Below are positions 179-41,060 of a stretch of 64,000 nt of DNA, one piece after another. The notes beneath the pieces are model-generated. The model searched no databases, was not told where the DNA came from, and worked only from the letters and a program-made list of their open reading frames with translations. Position 1 is the first letter of the stretch. Each line of letters opens with the position of its first letter. The DNA comes from Terriglobia bacterium (lineage in GTDB: Bacteria > Acidobacteriota > Terriglobia > Terriglobales > Acidobacteriaceae): positions 62,001 through 126,000 of the forward strand of contig JAIQEU010000009.1 in assembly GCA_020073665.1 (NCBI GenBank). The letters are read 5' to 3'. The position numbers were made by a program, and so were the translations under genes.

Positions 179-532
179 GAATGCCTCCTCGAAATGTGAG
201 CAGATGGAAAAGGTCCACGGGAATTATAGCTGGTGCGTCCTCGAATCGATGCTTTGCTCATCAGGCGTATCTCCGCGATGGGAGCGATTTTCTCCGCGAT
301 ATTCACAATGGTTGGCACCGGTGCCGCAGCCGATTCTTCCGCTCCCAGAATTTCGTTGCTTCGAAAAACCGCGCCCCGGCTGGTCGCCCCGCAGCGATGC
401 CGGCCTGGCGCTGCACCAGTTTCGGTTCATATGCCTGTGAACCAGCTGCACTCGATTGATTTGTGGATAGATACAGCCGCACTGTTTTTGTTGACTCGAA
501 GAATGGAAAGAGTAAAAACATACTCGTTCTTT

Positions 533-672
533 GACAGCTTCTGAAGTTTTTCCGGTTGGCGCGGCGTCCGGGGCTCGAGCGTAGTCACTCTCCACATCGC
601 AAGATGATGGAGGGAGGGCGAGTGAGGGTCTATAGCAAAGCGCTGGTCGAGGAGAACAGGAAGATTTGTTGA
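533..672 (+). ncRNA. putative structured RNA motif, copy A of a tandem pair
   Basis: No convincing gene lies in this stretch. Its sequence shares ordered blocks with copy B about 160 bases downstream: TCCGGTTGGCG, a CCGG-GC-CGAGC block, a hairpin capped by a GCAA tetraloop, then AGGGTCTA-AGC and CTGG-CGAG. The hairpin arms (CTCTCCA with TGGAGGG) differ completely in sequence from those of copy B but still pair, the covariation expected of an RNA. A weaker closing helix (CTTCTG with CAGGAAG, one bulge) encloses it. Strand was chosen from the GNRA loop. The family is not recognised. Confidence 0.5.
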
Positions 673-681
673 AGGCAAGAT

Positions 682-845
682 AGAGTCCCGAGGCGTTACG
701 CTGGTTTGTCCGGTTGGCGGTGAGCCCGGAGCCCGAGCAACGATCGCGCGTCGTAACCCGCAAGGAAGCGACGCAGACAGGTCGGCAAGGGTCTAAAGCG
801 AGCTACTGGCCGAGAGGAATGAGCGTAACACCACCTCGGGACTCT
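682..845 (+). ncRNA. putative structured RNA motif, copy B, with long closing stem
   Basis: Copy B repeats the ordered blocks of copy A with compensatory changes. Its ends form a strong helix: AGAGTCCCGAGG (682-693) pairs perfectly with CCTCGGGACTCT (834-845), and GTTACGCT (695-702) with AGCGTAAC (822-829), giving 20 base pairs. Inside, GCGTCG/CGACGC forms a hairpin ending in a GCAA loop. A 164-nt closed structure like this is compatible with a small RNA or a tandem riboswitch-like element. 6S RNA was considered for its closed-rod shape, but the internal arrangement does not clearly match. No gene follows on the plus strand until 1853. Confidence 0.55.
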
Positions 846-866
846 TATTTTCTTGCGGTGGCTGGG

Positions 867-920
867 TGGTCAGCGCGGCCTCATACATCCTCTCCTCCCC
901 CGATCGTGGCTCGCTGACCA
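867..920. repeat. 9-bp inverted repeat with long loop
   Basis: TGGTCAGCG at 867-875 pairs with CGCTGACCA at 912-920 across a 36-nt loop. It lies just beyond the stop of the Ig-like protein gene, so it could act as a weak terminator for that gene; there is no T-tract. Confidence 0.35.
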
Positions 921-2410: not shown

Positions 2411-2477
2411 CAGGTAGCGGGACGGAAGCTGCAGGTCGTGCGCCTGTGGTGAGCCGCGAAGCGGCGAAAGAATGAAG

Positions 2478-2497
2478 CCCACGGCGCAAGCCGTGGG
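2478..2497. repeat. 8-bp perfect hairpin with GCAA loop
   Basis: CCCACGGC-GCAA-GCCGTGGG, in the 174-base gap between the HD-like gene and the PrpD gene. It is followed by a CCCGGAAGGGAC segment that resembles the intergenic repeats near 32040 and 40950, so it is more likely a dispersed repeat than a dedicated terminator. Confidence 0.5.
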
Positions 2498-40471: not shown

Positions 40472-41060
40472 CCACCCTTGGGGGAGGGAGGTTGAGGTTT
40501 TCGGGCTTACGATTTTTGACTGGTGAGTTCGCAAAGTAGTTGATCCCGATTGGTGGTCTCGGGACTGCTGAATTCTGTCTCGAGGGTGACGACGAATCTA
40601 CGCGGCGGATGATGCAGGGTCAATTCCATAAGATTGGTGCAGTGAGGAAATTCCGGCCTACTGATTTGGCGGCGGAATACGGATTAAGCCGATGGTTAAG
40701 GAAGTGTGGCTAAGCCGCGCTAGGACGCAGTTTCGGTTGCAGGGACCGAGAAAGGGTATTACCCAGCGGCGGATTTTCCACAGCGGGCGCACAGGAAATG
40801 CAGGAAAGGCGGTAGCGAGAAGCGAGCGCCTAGGGCTCAGGAGACGATGAGTTTCGCAAGAGCTTTAACCACCGAGCCACCGAGCCAGAAAGAGAGCTAT
40901 GCGGAATCGTTTGGGCATGATTACTCCTAACGGGATTGTACCCGTTAGCCGTCCCTCCGGGACTTGGTCACACTTTCTCAACTTCCCAGCGCTGAAGCGC
41001 TGGGCTACTATCGCAACGCCCCTCCGGGGCTCAGTCCGAAGAACCGAATTGCACACGCCC
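40472..41060. repeat. 589-base gap with palindromic repeats and DnaA-box-like 9-mer
   Basis: No gene is visible. A TTTTCCACA 9-mer (one mismatch to the DnaA box) is at 40774-40782; another lies at 40146-40154. From 40925 to 41040 are palindromes AACGGG-ATTGTA-CCCGTT, a CCCAGCGCT-GA-AGCGCTGGG 9-bp hairpin (40985-41004) and CCCCTCCGGGG, which resemble the repeats near 32000. Confidence 0.6.

Follow-up and report, generated by a model that had tools for sequence, protein, structure and literature searches.

The window, i.e., the whole stretch of 64,000 nucleotides analysed here, carries at 526-845 on its forward strand a unit of two related domains, A and B, together about 325 nt long, to which the Ig-like gene downstream is convergent (Table 1). 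The first-pass annotation had proposed two tandem copies of a structured RNA at this position, and that proposal stands: ordered blocks are common to the copies at 533-672 and 682-845, and each copy folds better than its dinucleotide shuffles (z -3.45 for A, -6.12 for B). In the predicted fold of the whole unit (524-852; z -5.94 against shuffles) the two form separate domains. The start of the unit was moved 5′ to about 525 because part of the boxA-like word, 529-535, pairs with 668-674 and closes domain A. A second A + B unit, 84% identical by BLAST, is present in the same genome (G000:C11:86710-87037).

Table 1. Features of the RNA locus, in window coordinates
Feature	Position	Strand	Basis
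Conserved upstream element, CTGTGR-N4-GCTGCACTCGATTG	435-458	+	Only two places in own genome, both 5′ of RNA loci
Presumed promoter: TTGACT (491-496), 16-bp spacer, TAAAAA (513-518)	491-518	+	Conservation across loci
boxA-like GTTCTTTGACA, presumed RNA 5′ end	526-536	+	Fit to GYTCTTTRANA in 98/115 loci
RNA domain A: closing stem 529-535 with 668-674; core 547-656; GCAA loop 599-602	529-674	+	Covariance-model match, 98.3 bits; 35-pair structure, 81 homologues
Interdomain linker	675-681	+	Domain alignments A4 and A5
RNA domain B: closing stem 682-693 with 834-845; core 705-819; GCAA loop 760-763	682-845	+	Covariance-model match, 111.8 bits; 47-pair structure, 90 homologues
T-rich tail 3′ of closing stem, presumed 3′ end/terminator	846-854	+	T-rich run after CCTCGGGACTCT in most A4 loci

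A and B both form long, irregular hairpins, in which the core is almost constant, the internal loops are small and conserved, and the variable stem at the cap is usually GNRA-tipped. Both apical stems in the window do end in GCAA, as had been annotated, while the closing stem of copy B, taken at first for 20 perfect pairs, is instead one of 12 and 8 pairs with a 1×4 internal loop between them. What of the covariation that had been read from the two copies? Two copies alone could not prove it, but 90 homologues of B and 81 of A, the former non-redundant, now show it. A 47-pair structure of domain B, drawn on one relative and then scored on the 90, has 96.8% of its cells paired, with 21 pairs changed on both sides (206 such cells); not one of 500 shuffles equalled it by any measure, and when the structure was slid along the alignment the paired share dropped to 32-48%. 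As related sequences can beat such shuffles, most weight goes to the number of pairs altered on both sides and to the drop on sliding. The covariation of B is mostly in helices 1 and 2. Its core, where three G-U wobbles follow one another (two present in 90/90 sequences and the third in 89/90), is so nearly invariant that pairing there is neither supported nor opposed by covariation, and the variable stem ends in a GNRA loop in 75 of the 90 predicted folds. For domain A a 35-pair structure matching that of B is 96.7% paired, with double changes at 9 pairs. That this is a structured RNA is near certain. The domains also vary by addition: the apical hairpin region of A carries long insertions in several lineages (L011, L016, L017, L020, L021, L022), and a further small hairpin occurs 3′ of GAGC in domain B of L015, L023, L035, L046, L066, L077, L092, L205 and L206.

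The homologues with compensatory changes came from other acidobacterial genomes, where the first-pass annotation had suggested looking for them. BLAST matches to copy B occur in 23 of 61 genomes, its own included, and a covariance model built from 44 domain cores matches 116 among 300 genomes from the family to which the window belongs, usually with two or four domains in each, i.e., one or two units per genome and rarely three. In a class-wide sample of 299 genomes the model's matches are confined to that family, under strict filters that may lose weak ones. In a collection that represents each species by a single genome, a pattern scan gave at least 116 stretches, and among the matches listed 80 of 80 are from Acidobacteriota; across the genome samples and the matches listed from that scan, the domains are found in Acidobacteriota only. 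In 88 sources an A is paired with a B on the same strand, their cores mostly some 49 nt apart, except at a contig or locus end or where domain A is too divergent or is split by an insertion. One relative, G028, has two units with equal domain A scores, each near a contig end (C12:836974-837281 and C27:558013-558320), possibly a recent duplication or gene conversion.

Flanking genes differ between loci, and many loci fall in two upstream and two downstream groups, which are rough, being formed by single linkage on ORFs from a simple script. As these groups broadly track the RNA tree, inheritance appears to have been mainly vertical. That bears on whether the unit might be mobile or repetitive DNA, of MITE or REP-like type, with inverted repeats that merely resemble RNA. 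Its long inverted-repeat ends and the different flanks of the two copies in its own genome would suit such an element; the low number of units per genome, mostly at a few inherited sites, the conserved promoter, the pairing-preserving changes inside the domains and the lack of any match when viral contigs were pattern-scanned do not, and we regard it as highly improbable.

How might the unit be transcribed? A scan for consensus promoters and terminators called neither at it, the promoter being missed because its -10 departs from TATAAT. TTGAC is nonetheless present in 114 of 115 distinct upstream regions, with TANAWN 16 bp downstream of it in 104 of the 115 loci and 17 bp in a further five. 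The upstream element is found, allowing up to three mismatches, at 95 of the 115, and of the 91 loci with both it and the -35 placed (the element by its 3′ half, at up to two mismatches), 90 have 31-32 bp between them. From this conservation the RNA gene would appear to be driven by its own sigma-70-type promoter, accompanied by an upstream element at a fixed distance. The 3′ end does not have the form of a canonical short-loop terminator.

The word placed directly at the presumed RNA start in most loci fits GYTCTTTRANA, which we take to be the boxA consensus. 16S was looked for in the window's genome and four relatives and was absent from the former and three of the latter, so that comparison with an rRNA leader was made with G028 alone; there the leader has GGTCTTTGACA, identical at 10 of 11 positions to the boxA-like word of the RNA unit. 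5′ of the rRNA promoter in that leader (L209) is a DnaA-box-like CTGTGGATAAC, and the RNA genes have CTGTGGA 5′ of theirs. With a TTGAC promoter and a putative boxA near the 5′ end, the RNA gene resembles an rRNA leader and looks like a transcription unit of rRNA type, and it may be subject to rRNA-type antitermination through that boxA; it is unlike such a leader in having two folded domains downstream and no rRNA gene. boxA elements are reported to raise the expression of long untranslated RNAs (PMC7862264, PMC10250234). In rRNA leaders, sequence near boxA comes to lie in a long helix (PMC10250234), and the same is predicted here. In 79 of 80 units the CUUUGAC of the boxA can pair, counting G-U, with the end of domain A; shuffled words match on average 5 of 80 linkers, though at least one shuffled 7-mer also matches 80/80. 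Given this complementarity, the word may first recruit antitermination factors and later close domain A.

Is the unit then a leader of some other kind? Tandem arrangement had prompted the suggestion of a riboswitch, i.e., two ligand-sensing aptamers controlling a downstream gene in cis, and the NAD+-I (nadA) riboswitch does have two homologous tandem domains (PMC10702441, PMC7297122); a helix followed by T at the 3′ end of the unit is a further point of likeness. However, among 126 loci with a downstream ORF called, the nearest runs opposite to the unit at 94 and in its direction at 32, neighbours vary, and the flank groups show no one gene that the unit regularly precedes as a 5′ leader, nor does it match any riboswitch in Rfam. 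With a promoter region of its own, a boxA-like start, and three quarters of the nearest downstream ORFs, as well as the Ig-like gene of the window, facing it, the suggestion is unsupported and a cis-acting leader seems decidedly unlikely, even if at the 32 same-strand loci read-through is possible. The opposed ORFs, together with a unit length that varies out of phase with 3, speak against both a leader and a protein gene. Overall the context favours a non-coding gene that stands alone and has been inherited mainly by vertical descent.

To which known RNA is it related? The family had been left unassigned and stays so: in Rfam 15, at gathering and at permissive (E≤10) thresholds, nothing beyond chance matches the unit, no family is over the cut-off in eight homologous loci, and literature searches found no description of the RNA. 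It is an RNA family of Terriglobales absent from Rfam; the Soil-1 and Solibacter-1 motifs of PMC2864571 have no Rfam accession in the table of that paper. Many microRNA families match below the cut-off on both strands of L066 (7484-7579) and L091 (1201-1297), as expected of a long inverted repeat. Acido-1 and Acido-Lenti-1 (RF01686, RF01687) are candidate structured RNAs of Acidobacteria judged not to be cis-regulatory (PMC2864571), and in both respects the present RNA appears similar, but neither model matches window 450-920 at E≤10. Acido-Lenti-1 is 46 nt and is placed elsewhere in the window, where two are above the Rfam cut-off, at 2452-2497 (-) and 40985-41031 (+). OLE, ROOL and GOLLD, which are reported to form homo-oligomers (PMC12286853), are large bacterial RNAs and likewise highly folded; the present one is far smaller than these and differs in its two repeated domains and want of an Rfam match.

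Long rod-like hairpins, an own promoter and at most two paralogous loci per genome, as in some such RNAs, would also be in keeping with a regulatory RNA of known type that titrates or steers one global protein, be it a 6S-like polymerase decoy, a CsrB-like sponge or a Y-RNA-like tether. 6S RNA (RF00013) is, like this RNA, a long irregular hairpin from a standalone gene, and lacks its two domains and boxA-like start; the genome's sole RF00013 match is at C27:278159-278347, away from the unit. A CsrA sponge of CsrB/RsmY type would have no CsrA to bind in its own genome or the 24 family relatives tested, and Ro60/TROVE protein, the partner of a Y RNA, is absent from its own genome and present in only 2 of 41 genomes. 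Hfq, being in nearly all genomes, is uninformative about the RNA's partner. A known type is thus rather unlikely, with the same action through a protein other than CsrA or Ro possible.

The reading preferred here is that the unit is probably a standalone gene for a trans-acting structured RNA that uses antitermination of the rRNA type and works as an RNA-protein particle, its standalone action in trans being likely. Transcription of the ~325-nt RNA would start from the sigma-70-type promoter and fixed upstream element, and the boxA-like word at its start would load an NusB/S10 antitermination complex, as in rRNA, letting RNA polymerase pass an untranslated and highly folded region. On completion of domain A the word, complementary as it is, would be taken into that domain's closing helix. 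The RNA may then act in trans, most plausibly by scaffolding an RNA-protein particle, in which the core would bind protein or fold on itself and the GNRA cap would dock as a tertiary contact. More tentatively, and with some doubt, it may be an abundant, previously undescribed RNA of Terriglobales that borrows the antitermination of rRNA, forms a stable two-domain housekeeping particle and keeps boxA also in the mature fold.

Rfam thus lacks a strongly supported structured RNA, one conserved in a large group of soil bacteria that are mostly uncultured. The rRNA-like start of transcription, the fixed pairing of an A with a B domain and a core that scarcely changes suggest that its role in the cell is important, and this is open to test in a cultured relative.
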